A program made the translations under genes and the position numbers. This document shows positions 8,697 to 64,000 of a stretch of DNA of 64,000 nt, piece after piece. The notes beneath the pieces are model-generated. The model was given only the letters and a program-made list of their open reading frames with translations. It had not been told where the DNA came from and ran no database searches. The stretch spans positions 1 to 64,000 of the forward strand of contig NZ_CALFBQ010000039.1 of the NCBI RefSeq assembly GCF_937951745.1. The letters run 5' to 3'. How positions within the stretch are numbered: position 1 is the stretch's first letter; the number at the start of each line of letters is the position of its first letter. Source of the DNA: an uncultured Chloroflexus sp. (GTDB lineage Bacteria; Chloroflexota; Chloroflexia; Chloroflexales; Chloroflexaceae).

Positions 8697-8895
8697 TGTC
8701 GTGTTCTCGTGGTGGGGCGTGGGCCATTGGCCGTTGCCTGCCTGATCATCGGCGGTATTGTAACATAAGCGGAAGGGTTGGCCGCAGGGAAGGACGCCAT
8801 TTCGTTTACTGTAGAGAACGCAACGGGCGCGGAGGGATAGGGACTGCTGGCACGTCTTCGTCGCGCCAGTAGTCCCCTCCGAGAGAGGTATGAAA

Positions 8896-8987
8896 CTCCC
8901 TCCCCCAGCGGGAAAGGGTTGGGGTGGGGGCCACCCCAAAACCACCTTTGCGCCCTTCGCGCGCTTTGCGTCTTTGCGTTACACGCC
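8896..8987. repeat. C/G-rich hairpin element next to a CTTTGCG-type repeat
   Basis: The 347-nt spacer 8697-9043 between carA and ribH has no gene. It contains a C-tract/G-tract element (8896-8930) followed by a perfect GGGGTGG/CCACCCC stem (8921-8927 with 8931-8937), then a copy of the CTTTGCGTCTTTGCGTT repeat family (about 8946-8980) and a CCGGAC/GTCCGG dyad near 9005-9020. Such short dispersed units recur in other spacers of this window. Confidence 0.55.
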
Positions 8988-9043
8988 TCTGCATCTTTGG
9001 GGGGCCGGACAGTCGTCCGGTGCTACCGGCGTTACCCTACGTT

Positions 9044-9556
9044 TCAACCCTCAACCGCCAGCGCCACCCGATCAATCTCCCGCAGCACATTAGCCATCTC
9101 AATGGCGGCTAGCGCCGCATCAGCGCCGCGATTACCAGCCTTCGTTCCGGCCCGTTCAATCGCCTGCTCAATGGTTTCAGTCGTCAGTACACCAAACACA
9201 ATCGGCACATCGGTCGCCAACGCCGTGGCCGCTATCCCGCCGGCAGCCTGCCCCGCCACATACTCAAAATGGCTCGTTGCGCCCCGAATAACCACACCGA
9301 GACAGATGATCGCATCGTAATACGGGCTATCGTCGGTCGCACTCTTGCGCTTAGCCATCCGCTTCGCGACGAGCGGCAACTCAAACGCTCCCGGCACCCA
9401 CGCAATATCGATGTCATCGTGAGCGACGCCGTGCCGGGTGAGCGTCTCAATAGCGCCCCGTAGTAACTCGCGCCCAATCGTGTCGTTGAAGCGCGAGATC
9501 ACGATCCCGAATCGCAAGCCGGTTCCAACCAGATGGCCCTCAAACGTGATACCCAT
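9044..9556 (-). CDS. ribH: 6,7-Dimethyl-8-ribityllumazine synthase
   Basis: 170-aa lumazine synthase, the penultimate step of riboflavin synthesis, joining the ribulose-derived butanone phosphate and the pyrimidine. Motifs: FGIVISRFN near the start, WVPGAFELP for the substrate loop, [16 protein letters not shown] and the catalytic His region. The ATG at 9556 is preceded by GGAGG, and the gene overlaps the 3' end of ribBA by 17 nt. It is the last gene of the rib operon and ends just before repeat-rich DNA. Confidence 0.95.
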
Positions 9557-10787
9557 TGTTGCCTCCAAACACACGTTCAGCGTCATAGTCAGGGAGCAGA
9601 TGCCCTAATTTCGCCCGTTTCGTCGTCAAATAGCGCCGGTTAGCGTCGGTTGGCGCGATGTGCAGCGGAATCCGTTCACGTACAACCACACCGTACCGTT
9701 CGAGACCGGCGATCTTAGCCGGATTATTCGTCAGCAAGCGCACCTCTTCCATACCGAGACAACGTAGCATTTGAGCTGCAACACCATAATCGCGCGCATC
9801 AACCGGCAAACCTAATTGGCGATTGGCTTCGACCGTATCAAACCCGTGATCTTGCAACGCATAGGCGCGCAGTTTGTTGAGCAAGCCAATCCCGCGCCCT
9901 TCTTGGCGCAGATAGAGAATGGCTCCGTAACCTGCCTTGGCAATCTGCCGTTGCGCTTCGGCCAACTGCGCGCCGCAATCGCAACGCTGCGAACCGAGCG
10001 CATCACCGGTTAGGCATTCGGAATGCAGGCGCACGAGCGGGGAACGCCCATTAGCAGCGCCGAAGATCAAGGCGAGATGCGTTTCGGCGGTGAAGATATG
10101 CTCAAACGCAATCAGGCGAAACGTACCGTACTCGGTCGGCAAACTCGTTTCGGCTACTTGGCGCACCACTGTTTCGGTGCGGTAGCGATGAGCGATCAGG
10201 CTGGCGATGGACAAGATCGAGAGACCGTGATGAGCGGCAAACACTTCAAGGTCGGGCAGACGGGCCATCGTGCCGTCGGGGTTCATGATTTCGCAAATCA
10301 CCGCTGCTGGGTAAAGCCCGGCTAGTCGCGCCAGATCAAGAGAAGCCTCAGTTTGGCCGGGGCGCACTAACACACCGCCGGCAGCAGCGCGGAGGGGAAA
10401 GACATGGCCGGGCCGAGCGAGGTCTTCGGGTCGGGTAGTCGGATCAATCAGAGTACGGATCGTGGTGGCGCGATCAAACGCCGAGATGCCGGTCGTTACT
10501 CCCCGCCGCGCTTCAACCGAAACGGTGAAGGCGGTACCGAAGCGAGTGGTGTTCTCGGAAGGCTGAACCATCAGCGGAATCCGCAGTTCATCGAGCCGCT
10601 CGCCGGTCATCGCGACGCAGATCAGGCCACGCCCCTCTCGCGCCATAAAGTTAATCGCCTGTGGTGTGGCAAATTCGGCGGCAATCGCCAGATCACCCTC
10701 GTTCTCACGGTCTTCATCATCAACAATGATCACAAACTTACCGGCTCGAACATCGGCGATAGCGGTTTCAACGCTCGCGAATGGCAT
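9540..10787 (-). CDS. ribBA: Bifunctional 3,4-dihydroxy-2-butanone-4-phosphate synthase / GTP cyclohydrolase II
   Basis: 415-aa fusion. RibB half (about 1-205): [11 protein letters not shown] metal/substrate motif and a late HGLSILSI. RibA half (about 210-400): zinc ligands in [11 protein letters not shown] and [14 protein letters not shown] of GTP cyclohydrolase II. It supplies both precursors that enter riboflavin synthesis. The ATG at 10787 follows GGGGAGG. The 5' end overlaps ribE by 20 nt and the 3' end overlaps ribH, so the operon is translationally coupled throughout. Confidence 0.96.
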
Positions 10788-12632: not shown

Positions 12633-12657
12633 CCCCGAACAAACAATGTGTTCGGGG
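12633..12657 (-). terminator. Attenuator-like terminator in the rib leader
   Basis: On the reverse strand a 9-bp stem CCCCGAACA/TGTTCGGGG with a 7-nt loop is followed at once by TTTTC. It lies between the FMN aptamer and ribD, the position of a riboswitch-controlled terminator. Its 5' arm begins CCCCGAA, which is complementary to UUCGGGG at the 5' end of the aptamer and could form an antiterminator when FMN is absent. Confidence 0.7.
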
Positions 12658-12718
12658 CATGCAAACTATGCGCAACACGGCCCTAAGAAAAGCACGTAGA
12701 GCACACGTTGCAACGAAC

Positions 12719-12877
12719 CCTTCTTTCATCCCGACTATACGGTCGGCCCCGGAATTTCACCGGATCGTGCAGATTGCCGGTTACGACAATCCGCTCGTGG
12801 GCTATACCACCGATCGGGAATTGCCTGCTGTTCACGCGATGGCGAACCTCAGACTCACCCTGCCCCGAAGGTTACGT
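12719..12877 (-). ncRNA. FMN riboswitch (RFN element)
   Basis: The reverse strand carries the RFN consensus blocks in order: CCTTCGGGGCAGGGTGAG, AATTCCCGATCGGTGG, AGCCCACGAGC, GATCCGGTGAAATTCCGG, GGCCGACCG and GGATGAAAGAAGG. RFN aptamers bind flavin mononucleotide and switch off riboflavin genes. It lies about 190 nt upstream of ribD with a terminator and a ribosome-site hairpin between, so it should control the whole ribDEBAH operon. A possible -10 (TACAAT) lies just upstream at 12894-12899 on the same strand. Confidence 0.95.
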
Positions 12878-12939
12878 ATTGAGTTGTTACTCTATTGTAC
12901 ACCAACTAGCAAGCATGCGCAGCAGGCGTGCTCCCCTTC

Positions 12940-13100
12940 TAAGGAAGAGTGAGGCTCACTCCGCCAACGGGGGAGGGCTGGGGTGGGGGCTACCCAACAA
13001 CCCATGCGCGCCTTCGCGTCAAAAATCTCCACGTCTTGACGGAGCCAGACAGCCGTCCGGCTTTACTCACTTCGCACTTTGCGTCAATCGTCTTTGTGTG
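12940..13100. repeat. C/G-rich element and degenerate CTTCGCGTC/CTTTGCGTC repeats before the GT4 gene
   Basis: The segment holds CTCACTCCGCC followed by a G-rich run (about 12953-12992), then CCTTCGCGTC near 13011, a GCCAGACAGCCGTCCGGC dyad near 13043-13060 and CTTTGCGTC near 13077. It closely parallels the 8896-9020 spacer in order of elements. No gene is supported here although the downstream frame stays open. Confidence 0.45.
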
Positions 13101-13113
13101 TATCATTCGCCCT

Positions 13114-38293: not shown

Positions 38294-39691
38294 TCAGGGT
38301 TGCGCATTGACGATCACCGGTTGGTTTACGGTCATCACGGACGGTGCAAACCCCGCCGGCAGCCGGAAACGCACCGTCGTGCCGCGCCCTAGCTCGCTTT
38401 CGGCCCAAATTTGACCACCGTGTGCTTCAACCAAGCGGCGAGCAATCGCCAGCCCTAACCCTGCGCCGCCGCTGCTGCGCGTGCGCGCCCGATCGGCACG
38501 GTAGAAGCGGTCGAAGATGTGCGGCAAGTCAGCGGGATTAATACCCGGGCCAGTATCGGTCACGCTGAAGACGATGCCATCCGGATCGGCGGCAACGGTC
38601 ACGCGCACCACACCGCCAGCAGGGGTATGGCGCAACGCGTTGCTGATCAAGTTGCCTAAGACTTGTGCGATCCGTTGGGGATCAACTTCAATATCGGGCA
38701 AGCCATCGGCTGACCCAGCAGAGAGTTGGATCGCGCGCTCGGCGGCGCTCTGCGCGAATGAGCGTACCGCTTCGTTCACCAGCATCGTCGGCGCGACCGT
38801 TTCGCGGTAGAGCGGCAATTGGCCGGCATCAGCCAGCGCCAGCAGGTGCAGATCATTGATCAACCGTTCGAGCAGGGCAACTTCGGCCAGTAACGCTTCG
38901 ATCTGCCCGGCGTCAGCCTCATACACTCCATCTTGAATGCCCTCTAACTGGCCTTTGATGATCGACAGCGGCGTGCGCAACTCGTGGGCAATGTCAGCAG
39001 TGAGTTGGCGGCGTTGCTGGTCGGCCTGCTGCAAAGCGGCAGCCATGCGGTTGAAACTCTCGGCCAATTCAGCTAATTCGCGCACATTGGCCGGTTTCAC
39101 TCGGCTGCTATGGTCACCATCGGCAATCGCGTGCGCAGCGGCGCTGATCTGGCGCAATGGCGCGCTAATCCGGCGCGAGAAGATGGCAGCAATGGCAAGC
39201 AAGACGATCATCAGGCCGGTGCCAGCGCCGAACACTCCCCATAAAAGTGGCCGGCGATTGAGCTGACCAACCGGAAATGCCTCGTCGGTATCGAGCACTG
39301 AAATGACCAGCGTGCCAACCTGTTGACGATTAGCCACAATTGGAATACGTCGCACGGCTTCGTTACCGCGCACGATGAGAGGACGACGCTGCCCAGCGAC
39401 TACGCGACCTTTTGTATCAAGCAGCGAAACGGCACCATCGATACCGCCAAACCCTTGGGGAAGCGGACCTAGTCGCTGTTCGACCTTGTGCCACGAGCCG
39501 GTGCGTTGATAGTAGGCAGCCAACTGCATTGCAAGGTCTCGCGCCGCTATATCAGCCTCCATCCAACGGATTTGCTCTGGCTCGTTCCAGCGCGTTACGA
39601 TCCAGAACGAAGCCACCATACCGCTGATACCAAGCACGATGACTAGTGCAAAGGCGGTGAGCATAAGATTGAAAATGCGCGGCGGACGCAT
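38294..39691 (-). CDS. Two-component sensor histidine kinase (HAMP, HisKA, HATPase)
   Basis: 465-aa membrane kinase: transmembrane segments at about 11-33 and 150-172 flank an extracytoplasmic sensor; HAMP (about 172-225) with SRRISAPLRQI; dimerisation/phospho-acceptor DIAHELRTPLSIIKGQ; N box NLISNALRHTP, G1 DTGPGI, F DRFYRADRARTR and G2 GAGLGLAIAR. It phosphorylates the response regulator 42 nt upstream. The BaeS/EnvZ-like layout suggests envelope sensing, but the signal is unknown. Confidence 0.94.
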   Translation of the reverse strand: MRPPRIFNLMLTAFALVIVLGISGMVASFWIVTRWNEPEQIRWMEADIAARDLAMQLAAYYQRTGSWHKVEQRLGPLPQGFGGIDGAVSLLDTKGRVVAGQRRPLIVRGNEAVRRIPIVANRQQVGTLVISVLDTDEAFPVGQLNRRPLLWGVFGAGTGLMIVLLAIAAIFSRRISAPLRQISAAAHAIADGDHSSRVKPANVRELAELAESFNRMAAALQQADQQRRQLTADIAHELRTPLSIIKGQLEGIQDGVYEADAGQIEALLAEVALLERLINDLHLLALADAGQLPLYRETVAPTMLVNEAVRSFAQSAAERAIQLSAGSADGLPDIEVDPQRIAQVLGNLISNALRHTPAGGVVRVTVAADPDGIVFSVTDTGPGINPADLPHIFDRFYRADRARTRSSGGAGLGLAIARRLVEAHGGQIWAESELGRGTTVRFRLPAGFAPSVMTVNQPVIVNAQP

Positions 39692-57815: not shown

Positions 57816-58964
57816 ATGCATCCCTCACTCTTGCGCCTGCTGGCCGCCGTAGCCCGTCCATTAGTGCGCCGTATGCCGGCCAATCCAGCGCAACGGGTGC
57901 TGATCATCAAACCCGATCACCTCGGTGATCTATTGCTGGCGACGCCGGCGCTGGCCGCGCTGCGAGAAGCGTTGCCCACCGCACACCTTACGGGGCTGGT
58001 CGGGCCATGGGCTGCCACGATGTGGCAGCGCTTGCCCGAACTCAACGCGCTCGAAACGCTGCCTTTTCCCGCCTTCGACCGCGCCGCCGCCAAACCGATG
58101 CCGCTCGCGCCGTATACCCTCTTGCTGCGCGCGGCATGGCGGCTGCGCCGACAGTGCTACGATGCGGCGCTCATCTTGCGTGATGACCATTGGTGGGGCG
58201 CAGCTCTCGCGCTACTGGCCGGTATTCCCCACCGGATCGGCTTTGCTCACCCGCTCTGCCAACCGTTGCTCAGCGTGGCATTGCCCTACGATCCCCGCCA
58301 GCACGTAACCCAACAGGCGCTCGACCTCGTTGCAGCTCTTACCAGCGCCAAGCCTGCGCCGGGGCCGCTGCGCTTCTCGCCTACACCCGCTGCACAGGAA
58401 TGGGCGAAGGCATGGCTCCACCACCATAGCGCGCCGGAGGCGCAGGTGATCATCCTCCATCCCGGCACTGGCGGCCCCACCAAACACTGGCTGCGCGAGC
58501 ACTGGATGCGCCTGATTCAAGGGTTGCGCCAACCGGGCCGGCGGATTGTCCTCACCGGCAGCCCCACCGAAGGCGCTGAGCTGGCCGCGATTGCCGCCGC
58601 CCAACCAGATGTATTGACGCTGAGCGCCGACCTCACTATCGACCGGCTCGCCGCCTTGCTTAGCTATGCCGCACTGGTGATTGGCGTTGATAGCGGCCCG
58701 CTCCATATCGCCGTCAGTCAAGGTGTGCCCACGATCCACCTCTTTGGGCCGAGCGATCCGCGCCGCTTCGGGCCGTGGGGTGATCCGGCCCGCCAGCGCG
58801 TGATCAGCGCCAACCTGCCGTGCAGCCCCTGCGGCGTCTTCGCCGCCTGCCCGCGTGCCACCGATCCACCCGAATGCATGGCGGCCATCCAACCGGCCCA
58901 CGTGCTGACCGTCGCGGAAACGATGTTACTGAACCAGCGTCGCCACACGCCCGCCCCACACTGA
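57816..58964 (+). CDS. Glycosyltransferase family 9 (heptosyltransferase-like)
   Basis: 382-aa GT-B enzyme: RVLIIKPDHLGDLLLATPAL at residues 27-46, HPGTGGPTKHW around 222, GVDSGPLHIAVSQGVPTIHLFGP split at 290-312. GT9 enzymes add heptose or other sugars from ADP or UDP donors; in phyla without classical LPS their acceptors are unknown. No ribosome site is obvious before ATG 57816. The C terminus has a CSPCGVFAACP Cys cluster. Confidence 0.9.
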   Translation: MHPSLLRLLAAVARPLVRRMPANPAQRVLIIKPDHLGDLLLATPALAALREALPTAHLTGLVGPWAATMWQRLPELNALETLPFPAFDRAAAKPMPLAPYTLLLRAAWRLRRQCYDAALILRDDHWWGAALALLAGIPHRIGFAHPLCQPLLSVALPYDPRQHVTQQALDLVAALTSAKPAPGPLRFSPTPAAQEWAKAWLHHHSAPEAQVIILHPGTGGPTKHWLREHWMRLIQGLRQPGRRIVLTGSPTEGAELAAIAAAQPDVLTLSADLTIDRLAALLSYAALVIGVDSGPLHIAVSQGVPTIHLFGPSDPRRFGPWGDPARQRVISANLPCSPCGVFAACPRATDPPECMAAIQPAHVLTVAETMLLNQRRHTPAPH

Positions 58965-59048: not shown

Positions 59049-59092
59049 AATCTGTTGTGACCGCACAGGTGCCGATCAAGGGGGTGATTGTG

Positions 59093-59476
59093 GTGCGCCA
59101 AATGTGGCTTGGGATGATAGGGGCGCTTATGTTGTGCGCTAGTGTGGCATTGACTGCCTGCCTGCCCGATCCGCCGCCACGCAATCTGCCTACCCTGCCG
59201 GCCGTTCTCGACATTACACCCGCGCCAACCCTCGATATTGACGCTACGGCGACGGCCTACGCTAGCGCCCCGCGCCCAACACCAACGGTGGCGGCATTAT
59301 ACATCGTGCAAGCTGGCGATACACTCAGCGCCATCGCCGAGCGCTTCAGCGTCACCGTCGATGAGTTGGTCGCGGCCAACAATCTCACCGATCCCAACTT
59401 CATCCAACCCGGCCAAACCTTGCTGATTCCGTCGCTGATCGGCACCCCGCGCCCGGCGCTCACACCGACGCCGTAA
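59093..59476 (+). CDS. LysM domain lipoprotein
   Basis: About 127 aa. N-terminal lipoprotein signal with LTAC lipobox (Cys near residue 23), a Pro/Thr-rich linker and one LysM domain (YIVQAGDTLSAIAERFSV ... NFIQPGQTLLIP). LysM binds N-acetylglucosamine-containing glycans such as peptidoglycan, so an envelope-bound role is likely. AAGGGGG 6-12 nt before GTG 59093 supports this start; GTG 59090, GTG 59057 and ATG 59102 are alternatives. It has its own promoter. Confidence 0.8.
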   Translation: MRQMWLGMIGALMLCASVALTACLPDPPPRNLPTLPAVLDITPAPTLDIDATATAYASAPRPTPTVAALYIVQAGDTLSAIAERFSVTVDELVAANNLTDPNFIQPGQTLLIPSLIGTPRPALTPTP

Positions 59477-59533: not shown

Positions 59534-59941
59534 CTACCGCACCGCCAACACCAGCCGCCAGCAATTGAGGTTACGGAACCGGCGGTACTGCAACGTATCA
59601 AGAATCGCGCCGGCAATCGCCAATCCACGCCCACTCTCGTGCCAATCCTCCGGGAGCGAGGTTACTATTGCCGGTCTCTCCCACGCGCGCCCTCGATCAA
59701 CCAACCGAGCCTCAATTCGCGCCGGGGTGAAACGCAACCGCAACTGAATTGGCCCATCGCCCGGCCTCACCGCATACTGCAAGATATTCGCCACCACTTC
59801 GGCTATCGCCGTGTTAAACCGTATCTGCGCCTCAGGCGCAACCCCGGCTTCATCCCAAAATGAAGCCAGTGCGGTATGCAACTGCTCAATCCCTTCTGAC
59901 GGCACGACGCTGAGTTCATACTGGCGCTCGATACGGTTCAT
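59534..59941 (-). CDS. RsbW-like anti-sigma/serine kinase (HATPase)
   Basis: 135-aa GHKL ATPase: N box FNTAIAEVVANILQYA, a modified G1 region LVDRGRAWE (DxGxG expected) and G2 ESGRGLAIAGAI. RsbW-type kinases phosphorylate a STAS antagonist and bind a sigma factor or other partner. The cognate antagonist gene lies 14 nt upstream. The altered G1 box may affect ATP binding. No sigma gene is adjacent, so the target is unknown. Confidence 0.88.
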   Translation of the reverse strand: MNRIERQYELSVVPSEGIEQLHTALASFWDEAGVAPEAQIRFNTAIAEVVANILQYAVRPGDGPIQLRLRFTPARIEARLVDRGRAWERPAIVTSLPEDWHESGRGLAIAGAILDTLQYRRFRNLNCWRLVLAVR

Positions 59942-59955
59942 AGCGCATCTCAGAA

Positions 59956-60294
59956 CTACAAGTTCGCCTGCAATGCCTCAGCCACGTTGGGGTAAGGACG
60001 TAAGACTCGGTTCAGCGTGGTCAATTCCAAAATCGCCAGCGCTTGCGCGCCCACACAAGCTAGCCGCAGATCACCACCGGCCAACCGGGTCGCCTTCAAC
60101 CCGCCGATGAGTGCGCCCAGCCCTGAACTATCAACAAAACTGACTTCGCTCATATCAACTACCAATAACCGAAACCCTTCGTTGACGGCCTGTACCAGCC
60201 GTTGCTTCACCTCTGCGGCGACTAACAGATCGAGCCGGCCCCGCAATTGAACCACTGCCGTGCGTTCGTCCACTGGATTGACCGTGATCTCCAT
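59956..60294 (-). CDS. STAS-domain anti-sigma factor antagonist (RsbV/SpoIIAA-like)
   Basis: 112-aa STAS protein: VVQLRGRLDLLVA, then VDMSEVSFVDSSGLGALIGGL with the phospho-acceptor Ser of DSSGLG. It is expected to be phosphorylated by the adjacent RsbW-like kinase and to release its target when dephosphorylated. AAGGGGG precedes ATG 60294. It is 36 nt downstream of the BcsA-like gene, in one operon with it. Confidence 0.92.
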   Translation of the reverse strand: MEITVNPVDERTAVVQLRGRLDLLVAAEVKQRLVQAVNEGFRLLVVDMSEVSFVDSSGLGALIGGLKATRLAGGDLRLACVGAQALAILELTTLNRVLRPYPNVAEALQANL

Positions 60295-60330
60295 CAACGC
60301 CCCCTTCACAAACTCTGGCGCCATACTGTG

Positions 60331-62307
60331 CTACTGCTCCTCGGTAGGTTGGTACATTGCTGCATCGATAACTACACTGAGCATAACTAGATCATACACT
60401 GCCCAAAAAACGTTGACCACCACCGGCAACCCGTCGCTCCGCCAGCCCAATGCCAATTGCCCTAACCCCACCACAATCGCTACCGCAAGCAATGGCATCA
60501 TCAAAAGCTGCCAGCGCACCAGCCCAAAATAGCGCCCCGCTTGCCGGGTCTTCGGCGTAACGATAAAACCGAGTTTCTTACCGAACCATACATTGGCTGC
60601 CGCAGTCGTCACCGCCTTGATCCAGAGCGGAAAGAGCGCCAGACTGTATTGCTGCCCGCGCCACGTTGGCCGTCCCCAACTGATCACGGCAAAGAGCAAT
60701 TGGTTGACAATCAGATACGGCGCCAACCGCCAGAAAAATTCATCGGATAACGCATTGACCGGCAATAAGCCAAAGATAAGGTAAAGCACTGGTGAGATCA
60801 AATAAATAATTGTCGGCACTCCCGACAAATAGCTCCACATCGTGTCAAAATAGGCGAGGCGTTGACCCAAACTCAAGCCCGGCAAGGTCAATGGATTTTC
60901 CCGCAGCATCACTTGAATCGTGCCCTGCGCCCACCGTAATCGCTGTTGCAGCGCGCTGCGCAGATCTTCCGGCGCCAACCCATGGGCCAATATTTCATCG
61001 TGGTAGACCGAACGCCAACCGGTCGCATGCATGCGCATTGAAGTTGACATGTCTTCGGTGACCGAGATCGTCGAAATCGGCAGGTAATCCATCGCTTCAT
61101 TAACAAGCAGCGGGATGAGTTGCCGCACGGTTTCGATCGCCGCCAACGGCGATCGATCGCGCGCTGCCAGTTCCGCCAAGAGCGCCTCGTCATTCAGCGC
61201 ACGCATAATCTCGGCAGCTTCGACCGCTTGAATTTCAGCCAGATCGGCCATGATCTGTTGCAAATCAGCCGCCACCACCATCCGCGCCGCTTCTTCGGCT
61301 CGTCGCTGAAACCGCTCGGTCACTTCCTGAAAGGTATCTCCGCGATCTAACTCGCGCCGCGCTTGCGCCACCGCCCTGCGCAGCTCGCGCAACGCCGGTG
61401 CAATCCGCTGCCGATCTACTTTGGTCAACCGCCGTTCTGCTTGCCGGATCACCGTATCGGCCTCGCGTAATGCTCGCCGGATACGCCGCTCGACATCGCG
61501 CACAAAGAAGCGCAAGCCGGTGCGAGCCAACGCCTCGCGGCGCAAGACTGCATTTGAACCACAGAAAAATGCTGCGTTCCAACCGTCCTTCCCCTGTTGG
61601 ATCGGGCCGTAAAAGAGCGGCGCTTGGCTGCCGAACGGATCTCCCGGAGGTACATTGATAAAGTATTGCGGCGTCTGAACCAACCCAACTAGTGGATCGG
61701 CAAAATAACCGAGGGTGCGGTCAAGGATCTGCGGCAACGGCACCTGATCGGCATCAAGGATCAACACAAAATCGCCGGTTGTCTGTTCAAGCGCATTGAT
61801 CAAATTACCGGCTTTGGCGTGCCGATCAAATCCTTTCCATGCCGCCGAACGAGTAATATAGCCACATCCCTCTTCCGCCGCCATTGCCCGCATTGCCGGA
61901 CTATTGCCATCATCGAGCAGATAGGTCTGATGTGGATAGCGGATCGCCACGGCCGCCCGCACGGTCTTGCGCACCAGTTCGACCGGCTCGTTATAGCAAG
62001 TGATAAATACATCAACCCGCAGACCGGGCGGGGCCGGCGGCGGCTCGCCCCGCTCGCGCAGCCGAAAGACGGTAAGCCCAAAGAGGAAGCTGCCAATATA
62101 GCTGTACAGCTCAGCGCCAAACAATGCTAACGCAAACAGCCACGCATTCCAGTTGAGCGAAACAGTTCCTCGCCAGAGTAGGTAGTACGCGCCGAGCGTT
62201 AGGTTGGTAATCACCAGAATCTTGATCAGGCCACGCCGGAACGCAGCCCATTCCGCTGGCCCCCAACTGGCGCGCAGGAAGGTTGTGTCGAGGTACGAAG
62301 ACCGCAT
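60331..62307 (-). CDS. BcsA-like family 2 polysaccharide synthase with helical insertion
   Basis: 658-aa membrane glycosyltransferase. Two N-terminal membrane helices, GT2 core with FITCYNEP, LLDDGN (Asp132/133), LDADQ (Asp185, 187), FFCGSNAVLRREAL (247-260), TED (417-419) and QRLRW (455-459), then about five C-terminal membrane helices. A charged, probably coiled-coil insertion (about 264-411) splits the core between the AVLRR and TED motifs, where cellulose synthases have only a few residues. A PilZ domain is not seen, so c-di-GMP control by the usual route is absent. AAAGGAT precedes ATG 62307. Product may be cellulose or another beta-glycan. Confidence 0.9.
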   Translation of the reverse strand: MRSSYLDTTFLRASWGPAEWAAFRRGLIKILVITNLTLGAYYLLWRGTVSLNWNAWLFALALFGAELYSYIGSFLFGLTVFRLRERGEPPPAPPGLRVDVFITCYNEPVELVRKTVRAAVAIRYPHQTYLLDDGNSPAMRAMAAEEGCGYITRSAAWKGFDRHAKAGNLINALEQTTGDFVLILDADQVPLPQILDRTLGYFADPLVGLVQTPQYFINVPPGDPFGSQAPLFYGPIQQGKDGWNAAFFCGSNAVLRREALARTGLRFFVRDVERRIRRALREADTVIRQAERRLTKVDRQRIAPALRELRRAVAQARRELDRGDTFQEVTERFQRRAEEAARMVVAADLQQIMADLAEIQAVEAAEIMRALNDEALLAELAARDRSPLAAIETVRQLIPLLVNEAMDYLPISTISVTEDMSTSMRMHATGWRSVYHDEILAHGLAPEDLRSALQQRLRWAQGTIQVMLRENPLTLPGLSLGQRLAYFDTMWSYLSGVPTIIYLISPVLYLIFGLLPVNALSDEFFWRLAPYLIVNQLLFAVISWGRPTWRGQQYSLALFPLWIKAVTTAAANVWFGKKLGFIVTPKTRQAGRYFGLVRWQLLMMPLLAVAIVVGLGQLALGWRSDGLPVVVNVFWAVYDLVMLSVVIDAAMYQPTEEQ

Positions 62308-62318
62308 AGACCTATCCT

Positions 62319-64000
62319 TTACTGTTTGCGCAACCAGCGAATACGAACGACCAACACTACCGTTGCCAGCAAAGCAATCAGCAAGATGCCGCCGACAAAT
62401 TGCCACACCGGGATGCGCTCAAGCAAGGCGACTTCAATTTGCGGCGTCAAGGTCTGCGGCGGGGCGGCCAGCGGCGGCGTCAATGGCACAACAATACTAT
62501 CGCGATCCCCTGTAATCTGGGCCTGCGCTCCGCGTAGCACATCTAAGAGCGCTCGTTCACGCAACGCTCGCACCCCTAGCCGCATACCTGCACCGTCAGC
62601 AGCGTCGATCAGCAACACCCGCGCACCAAATTGCCACGGCGACGGTATCAGACTCAACGTCGCTTGTGCGCCGCGACCGGGTTGATACACAAACGGGGTG
62701 GTTGCGGCTGTATTGAGGGTCATTGTCAATGAATTCCGGTTGCGATCTCCCAGAATCGCCAATGGCCCACTCCGTTCATTGCCAATTGTATCTGCAGTCA
62801 CGAGACGCGGCGGCAACACATCAGGCAGCGCGCTCCAACGACCCATTGCTGCCGCTAACTCCAAGCCGGCTTGGATCTCGGCGAGAGTTGGTTGCGCCGG
62901 CAATACCAATCGCGCGCTCGTGTCTCCAATAATGAGCGCTGCTGGAAACCGGCCAAGATCGTCTGCTGCCGCTGGATCATGGGGTAAACGCCACGCCGAT
63001 GTCGGTTCGATGATTGCCCATGCTGCTGATGTATCGACCTCTTCACAACCATTGTTCGGCAGATCGAGATACAAGCGCGCTTGGAGATCAATCCGGCGCA
63101 GCGGTGTACCGGCCAAATCGCTATTGAGCAGATCGGCGGGCAGTTCAAACCGATACCGCTCGATCGCGTTAGCTTCCACCCGCAGCCGCTGCGAACCAAG
63201 GGTGATGCCATTGACAGATACCGCCAACCACGACCTTTCCGGCACGAGGCCAGCCGCCGTCACGACGTGCAATTCGAGGGTAGCCCCCACTCGAAGATTC
63301 CATCCCGGCGGACGCTCGAAGGCGTAATCGATCTGGTGTTCACCCGCGCCGATCACCCGGCGCTGTGCGATGCCCAACTGGGCAAAACTGGCAGCGCCTT
63401 CCTGCCACGCTGCAGCGACTGGTGCCGGCGGCGCTTGAGTCACTGCCAGCGCCGGCGCCGCCGGCAACGCGACTGTCAAAGCCCGCGCAGCGTACTCTAG
63501 TGCGATGGGGGTTGCACCTGCCACCAGTAGTTGTGGCGGCGCAGTTGGTGCCAACGCCAAAATGCCGTGATCAACCGGAATCACCTGTCCATCCACTTCA
63601 TAGGCATTGCCATTCCAACGCACATTTCCCCAATCTCCGGCTGGCAGTGGGCCTAACGCGACCACGATCGCAGGGGATTGTGCAGGGACTGCCTCTGCAA
63701 CGTTCACGACCGGATCTTGCCTCGCCAATGCGGCCCACTGCCCAATCGCAAAGGCGACTATGCCTCCTGCAGTTAACGTAGCCGTATCAGTTGCCGGCGA
63801 TAACACAATGGTCGGCGGTAACCGGATCGTAGGTACGCTCAGCGGTAGCGGCGCGAACAGTGCTGCCAGATCGGCGAGCGTTCCTGTCATAACCGGTTGT
63901 AAGTCAAGCTGGAGCGTTGACTCTCCACTCACAACCGTCCATAACGCTGGATTCTGCACCTCTTCGCAGGCATCATCGGTCAAGCGCATGTGGATCTGCA
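62319..64000 (-). CDS. BcsB-like subunit of a polysaccharide synthase, 5' end beyond the window
   Basis: About 560 residues are visible and the frame continues off the right edge. Two similar modules each end in a CEE motif (DDACEEVQNPALW and NNGCEEVDTSAAW), with strand-rich jelly-roll-like sequence between, and a C-terminal membrane helix (about 525-548) before RIRWLRKQ. This fits BcsB, the periplasmic partner of BcsA, with which it forms the translocation complex. It ends 11 nt before the BcsA-like start. Confidence 0.75.
   Translation of the reverse strand, partial: QIHMRLTDDACEEVQNPALWTVVSGESTLQLDLQPVMTGTLADLAALFAPLPLSVPTIRLPPTIVLSPATDTATLTAGGIVAFAIGQWAALARQDPVVNVAEAVPAQSPAIVVALGPLPAGDWGNVRWNGNAYEVDGQVIPVDHGILALAPTAPPQLLVAGATPIALEYAARALTVALPAAPALAVTQAPPAPVAAAWQEGAASFAQLGIAQRRVIGAGEHQIDYAFERPPGWNLRVGATLELHVVTAAGLVPERSWLAVSVNGITLGSQRLRVEANAIERYRFELPADLLNSDLAGTPLRRIDLQARLYLDLPNNGCEEVDTSAAWAIIEPTSAWRLPHDPAAADDLGRFPAALIIGDTSARLVLPAQPTLAEIQAGLELAAAMGRWSALPDVLPPRLVTADTIGNERSGPLAILGDRNRNSLTMTLNTAATTPFVYQPGRGAQATLSLIPSPWQFGARVLLIDAADGAGMRLGVRALRERALLDVLRGAQAQITGDRDSIVVPLTPPLAAPPQTLTPQIEVALLERIPVWQFVGGILLIALLATVVLVVRIRWLRKQ

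Follow-up and report, generated by a model that had tools for sequence, protein, structure and literature searches.

Bacterial cellulose-type synthases have largely been discussed in terms of gating by cyclic di-GMP (c-di-GMP), and homologues of RsbU, RsbV and RsbW classically target sigma factors. Partner switches acting on diguanylate cyclases have been described in the SiaABC-SiaD and HsbA-HsbD systems (PMC7647112, PMC8457831), and BgrUVW-BgrR of Sinorhizobium meliloti controls a mixed-linkage glucan (PMC7647112). BgsA senses c-di-GMP without a PilZ domain, through its C-terminal domain (PMC5567048). STAS-based switches are also found at polysaccharide or motility loci, as with SypA/SypE of Vibrio fischeri and HmpUVW of Nostoc, for which the review describing them names no target (PMC8256260). 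No report linking a partner switch to a cellulose synthase or glycosyltransferase was found in the open-access literature searched. The Chloroflexus operon described here points to a mode of switching bacterial polysaccharide synthesis that appears not to have been described before.

The operon lies at the end of the window, by which we mean the whole 64,000 nt stretch of DNA that was analysed; the contig continues for 4.2 kb past the window edge, and the genome totals 4.25 Mb. Profile searches and open reading frame coordinates place genes for a BcsB-like subunit, a BcsA-like synthase, a STAS protein and an RsbW-like HATPase in the same orientation on the minus strand. The BcsB-like protein, 686 aa in all, is encoded from 62319 to 64000 and on to contig position 64379 (Pfam PF03170, E 1.1e-60 for the full gene), and is separated by 11 nt from the gene for the BcsA-like family 2 glycosyltransferase, a membrane synthase of 658 aa (60331-62307; Pfam PF03552/PF13641). 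The start of the latter was set at the ATG at 62307, which is conserved across relatives, the mechanical open reading frame beginning earlier. There follows a single-domain STAS protein of 112 aa, resembling the RsbV and SpoIIAA antagonists (59956-60294; Pfam PF01740, E 1e-19) and scoring above the cut-off of the NCBIfam model ant_ant_sig (TIGR00377). Its gene has two alternative starts: an ATG at 60294, with the better ribosome-binding site, leaves a gap of 36 nt after the synthase, and one at 60324 would give a protein of 122 aa and a gap of 6 nt. The last gene of the operon, a further 14 nt away, encodes a HATPase_c_2 protein of 135 aa similar to RsbW and SpoIIAB (59534-59941; Pfam PF13581, E 6e-15). 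The four co-oriented genes with 11-36 nt spacing in the preliminary description are therefore confirmed, and the PP2C phosphatase that it suggested seeking upstream is encoded immediately adjacent. This first gene of the operon (contig 64376-67231, minus strand), wholly beyond the window, overlaps the start of BcsB by 4 nt and encodes a 951-aa protein with the architecture Hpt-REC-REC-GGDEF-REC-PP2C(SpoIIE), as judged from Pfam matches to Hpt (7.6e-9), three Response_reg domains, GGDEF (3.9e-44) and SpoIIE (2.5e-32). Scans for promoters and terminators gave signals no higher than those in shuffled sequence. After the operon come a convergent LysM-lipoprotein-like gene (59057-59476) and a GT9 gene (57816-58964), both of which follow it in most Chloroflexus loci and were not found in one of them (L030) or in the Roseiflexus loci.

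The synthase carries DDG, DAD, TED and QQRLRW motifs and an FxVTPK gating loop, and in an alignment of 44 synthases the DDG, DxD, TED and QxxRW motifs and the FxVTxK loop are invariant or nearly so. Its AF2 model matches E. coli BcsA (9fmz_A) with a Z score of 31.0 and an rmsd of 2.6 Å over 454 residues; hence, outside the insertion discussed below, the modelled fold is that of BcsA. Against the NCBIfam model for CelA (TIGR03030) the protein scores 336.9 bits, under half the curated cut-off of 699. The polymer is presumably a cellulose-like beta-glucan. PilZ is missing, as the preliminary description had it: none was found in the synthase by a Pfam search, and none was detected anywhere in the genome. 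The synthase is also without a C-terminal domain, ending directly after the last transmembrane helix, such that no recognisable c-di-GMP receptor, be it PilZ or a BgsA-type C-terminal domain, was found on it.

The helical insertion reported in the same description is real. Comprising approximately 148 residues (about residues 265-412; 61072-61515, minus strand) directly before TED, it results in 159 residues from FFCGSNAVLRR to TED. This RR-to-TED spacing is 158-166 residues in 49 of 49 insertion-type synthases measured, compared with 13-14 in 24 of 24 canonical Chloroflexota synthases. The insertion is predicted to be all-helical both within the whole-protein model and when modelled alone, the latter AF2 model being a helical bundle with a pLDDT of around 90 over its first 100 or so residues. 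Its sequence varies more, with a mean entropy of 1.28 compared with 0.53 in the catalytic core, and its invariant positions in the synthase alignment include T330, S386-P387-L388, A390 and A405. The sequence gave no credible match to Pfam or to PDB sequences, and the insertion-only model gave no match in the PDB at E <= 0.001, the best rows being designed or generic helical bundles, which gives no grounds for calling its fold new. Mimicry of a sigma factor domain by the insertion was likewise unsupported by this comparison.

The accompanying proteins have the features of a partner switch, namely a phosphorylatable DS[ST]G motif in the STAS protein, the N, G1 and G2 boxes in the HATPase and metal-binding Asp residues in the PP2C. 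The Ser-Ser pair of the STAS DSSG motif (60124-60129, minus strand) is, from its conservation in relatives, the presumed phosphorylation site: the first Ser is found in 112 of 112 distinct relatives and the second in 111, with Thr in the remaining one. The HATPase, presumed to be the Ser kinase for the STAS protein, retains the E and N of the N box in 112/112 distinct relatives, and the GxGL of its G2 box is nearly invariant. The Asp of the G1 box is present here and kept in 73/112 relatives; its replacement, mainly in Arthrobacter-like ones, calls for caution over the kinase chemistry of the HATPase in those relatives. The metal-site Asp residues of PP2C are conserved in 98-102 of 102 phosphatases. 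Elsewhere in the window are a further STAS domain (51-356, in a 644-aa frame) and a further HATPase_c_2 domain (38363-38770, in a 470-aa frame). Many switches of this type are probably in use, given 30 STAS matches across the genome and at least a dozen to HATPase_c_2 above the family cut-off.

Among the phosphatases sampled, the REC-PP2C form occurs in Roseiflexus, other Chloroflexota and some Arthrobacter, and GAF-PP2C in Rhodococcus-type (L101), Pseudonocardia (L136), Kocuria (L112) and one Arthrobacter (L090) locus; Chloroflexus alone has a phosphatase with a fused GGDEF domain. As the Roseiflexus protein, of around 400 aa, is only REC-PP2C, Hpt and GGDEF fall outside the conserved core. 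The Chloroflexus GGDEF domain looks active, its GGEEF motif being intact, though no PilZ was detected in the genome. Such a domain would suit a c-di-GMP step, which counts against the explanation we favour, in which the switch acts on the synthase itself. The operon could instead work in the manner of BgrUVWR or SiaABCD, with the phosphatase's own GGDEF domain, under the control of the switch, raising c-di-GMP that would activate the synthase via some non-PilZ site. Consistent with this, the GGEEF motif is intact throughout the aligned Chloroflexus proteins, the PilZ-less BgsA of S. meliloti binds c-di-GMP (PMC5567048) and the Bgr switch governs a diguanylate cyclase upstream of mixed-linkage glucan (PMC7647112). 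However, the Roseiflexus, actinobacterial and other Chloroflexota phosphatases sampled, being REC- or GAF-PP2C, have no GGDEF; the sensing domain of BgsA is C-terminal and cytoplasmic, whereas the synthase here stops after its last transmembrane helix; and no PilZ was detected in the genome. A c-di-GMP route of this kind thus appears distinctly unlikely.

Within the Chloroflexales, the synthase was found in 8/8 Chloroflexus genomes searched, counting the source genome, and in the five Roseiflexus genomes; at the same search threshold it was in no other genus of the order among 61 genomes. The order PP2C-BcsB-BcsA-STAS-HATPase occurs in every Chloroflexus and Roseiflexus locus with enough contig, and the identities between the two genera are 62-63% for the synthase, 50-57% for STAS, 38-43% for the HATPase and 45-47% for BcsB.

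A wider scan of one genome per species returned 435 relatives, and the loci of the best 80 were inspected. These 80 belong to Chloroflexota and Actinomycetota, the latter including Arthrobacter, Nocardioides, Rhodococcus, Kocuria and Pseudonocardia, with a few metagenome-assembled genomes (MAGs) under other labels; the 'Pseudomonadota' MAGs L067 and L070 were not counted as a third phylum, as these bins may be contaminated. Most of the best 80 loci have PP2C, synthase, STAS and HATPase genes in direct succession, BcsB being missing outside the Chloroflexales, and in a few (L090, L096 and L112) STAS and HATPase lie a few kb away in the opposite orientation. In order to avoid choosing genomes by similarity, 395 Actinomycetes genomes were also drawn evenly. 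Twenty-four had a synthase match, one of which was broken and one on too short a contig; STAS and HATPase adjoin the synthase in all 22 assessable loci (21 re-fetched, L232-L252, plus L101 of the query genome), and PP2C is present in all of these but L252, which is on a short contig. Of the 165 loci in total, 112 of them non-identical, 162 have the genes in the same orientation, and STAS is within 300 nt of the synthase in 160. The conservation of gene order, on which the preliminary description had made its proposal depend, hence extends across both phyla. In one genome, that of Arthrobacter agilis (G427), two insertion-type synthases (L254 and L255) are without switch genes nearby, and the sole family-specific HATPase sits in an intact PP2C-STAS-HATPase trio elsewhere in the genome (L290).

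The constant genes across loci are those for PP2C, STAS, HATPase and synthase; those for BcsB, OpgC and GH26 are not. Genes for a GH26-like/TIG protein and an OpgC-type acyltransferase recur near some Arthrobacter-type loci (L082:10803-12101, L087:12141-14666), hinting at an acylated polymer. The class-specific region of plant CesA proteins is located between DxD and TED, the same sequence interval as the insertion, which itself matched no known fold. The insertion might accordingly serve oligomerisation, as in the plant enzymes, with the switch acting elsewhere, on BcsB, an acyltransferase or the machinery of the cell surface, or being a passive hitch-hiker, and the OpgC-type acyltransferase or GH26 genes at some actinobacterial loci could be read in this way. 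Yet it is precisely these genes and BcsB that vary whilst the trio and the synthase stay constant, and the trio is retained even when unlinked from the synthase, unlike passive neighbours. We consider such an arrangement very unlikely.

Comparison with canonical synthases ties the insertion to the switch. None of STAS, HATPase or PP2C was found in the retrieved flanks of the 24 canonical Chloroflexota synthases, some of which are on short contigs. Given 112 non-identical loci in two phyla against this absence from 24 canonical loci, the linkage of synthase and switch is far beyond chance. In a tree built without the insertion columns, a branch with SH-aLRT support of 98 separates the insertion-type synthases from the others, so the insertion and the linkage share one origin; their co-occurrence is a single evolutionary event kept over time, rather than many independent ones. 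Distances between pairs of loci are correlated among the synthase, the STAS protein and the HATPase (rho 0.69-0.78). An MI-APC analysis of co-evolution between the insertion and STAS or the HATPase was underpowered (112 sequences, effective number 62), its top STAS-HATPase signals being reading-frame overlap at the gene ends.

One locus in another lineage resembles these. A plasmid of Nostoc sp. UHCC 0926 (NZ_CP117772.1, 5732-13113) encodes a PilZ-less CesA-like synthase, preceded by a weakly GH26-like protein, with STAS (8751-9089), PP2C (9394-10110, opposite strand) and HATPase (12655-13113) genes within around 5 kb. Its extra segment lies between DDG and HAKAGN, not before TED. This is possibly a second coupling of such a kind in a third phylum, and since the synthase is without the insertion described here, the insertion may be unneeded for such coupling.

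The same linkage bears on a classical transcriptional switch, in which the HATPase would be the anti-sigma factor for an unlinked sigma factor transcribing the operon or a wider regulon, and proximity to the synthase would reflect co-regulation only. Sigma factors are the classic targets of RsbU/V/W homologues, and this genome has five region-3 sigma factors besides its dozen or more HATPase_c_2 matches over the cut-off. Nevertheless, no sigma factor is conserved near the system, a sigma-like gene being present at only 9/111 loci, at no constant position, with seven of the nine being of the primary type, judged by score and length. A general sigma switch would not be expected to be tightly linked to one synthase clade in two phyla and to 0/24 canonical synthases, and it moreover leaves the insertion unexplained. 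We therefore regard this as unlikely.

Instead, we favour a dedicated partner switch whose output is the synthase, controlled post-translationally, rather than a sigma factor, with the insertion as the likely docking module, and would put the probability of this reading at roughly 0.6. In such a scheme, a signal at the receiver domain, or the GAF domain in some actinobacteria, would turn on the PP2C phosphatase, which would strip phosphate from the STAS Ser, the HATPase kinase restoring it. According to its phosphorylation, the STAS protein would hold or free the HATPase, and one of the two would dock on the cytosolic helical insertion beside the TED/QxxRW active site and so set synthase activity, the partner switch taking the place of the missing c-di-GMP/PilZ gate. 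We lean slightly towards STAS, rather than the HATPase, as the protein that contacts the synthase: its conservation is the higher of the two, and SiaC and HsbA, themselves of STAS type, make direct contact with the enzymes they control. The original proposal was that the switch may directly control glycan synthesis. There is good support for the trio and the insertion-bearing synthase being a single system; direct action, and action through the insertion, we infer, together with the phosphorylation activities, the binding to the insertion and the direction of the switch. The full evolutionary version, in which a clade of PilZ-less glucan synthases gained a helical docking domain of around 150 aa, through which Ser phosphorylation of STAS gates synthesis directly without transcription or c-di-GMP, seems to us an even bet.

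If true, processive glycosyltransferases could be gated in a second way, unrelated to the first, by a Ser-phosphorylation switch, and the reach of partner switching would widen beyond sigma factors and cyclases to include a membrane polymerase. The operon also offers a concrete set of genes to target for polymer production in Chloroflexus and Roseiflexus, which build hot-spring mats, and in soil actinobacteria, and the insertion is a single domain on which the idea can be tested.

Each described system shares part of this arrangement. The synthase has the fold, GT2 motifs and gating loop of the E. coli and Rhodobacter BcsA proteins and, in the Chloroflexales, a BcsB partner, but differs in being without PilZ, in the insertion of about 150 aa before TED and in scoring under half the CelA cut-off. 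The switch consists of the same three protein types as SpoIIAA/AB/E and RsbV/W/U of B. subtilis, with the conserved Ser, N-box and PP2C metal residues; however, those target a sigma factor, none of which is conserved near the system here. As with SypA/SypE and HmpUVW, a STAS-based switch is tied to a polysaccharide locus, although those are not tied, in the review describing them (PMC8256260), to one insertion-bearing synthase clade. The Bgr/BgsA system of S. meliloti similarly has a partner switch alongside a PilZ-less cellulose-synthase-like glucan synthase, but acts via the cyclase BgrR and the C-terminal c-di-GMP-binding domain of BgsA; that domain is missing here, as is, among the phosphatases sampled, any cyclase outside Chloroflexus. 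In SiaABCD and HsbRA-HsbD of P. aeruginosa, a PP2C, a kinase and a STAS-type antagonist likewise make up a partner switch, which controls an enzyme by protein contact and governs biofilm formation, but that enzyme is a diguanylate cyclase instead of a glycosyltransferase, and polysaccharide is reached via c-di-GMP. What is new in the Chloroflexus operon and its relatives is a partner switch with a new target, probably an enzyme.
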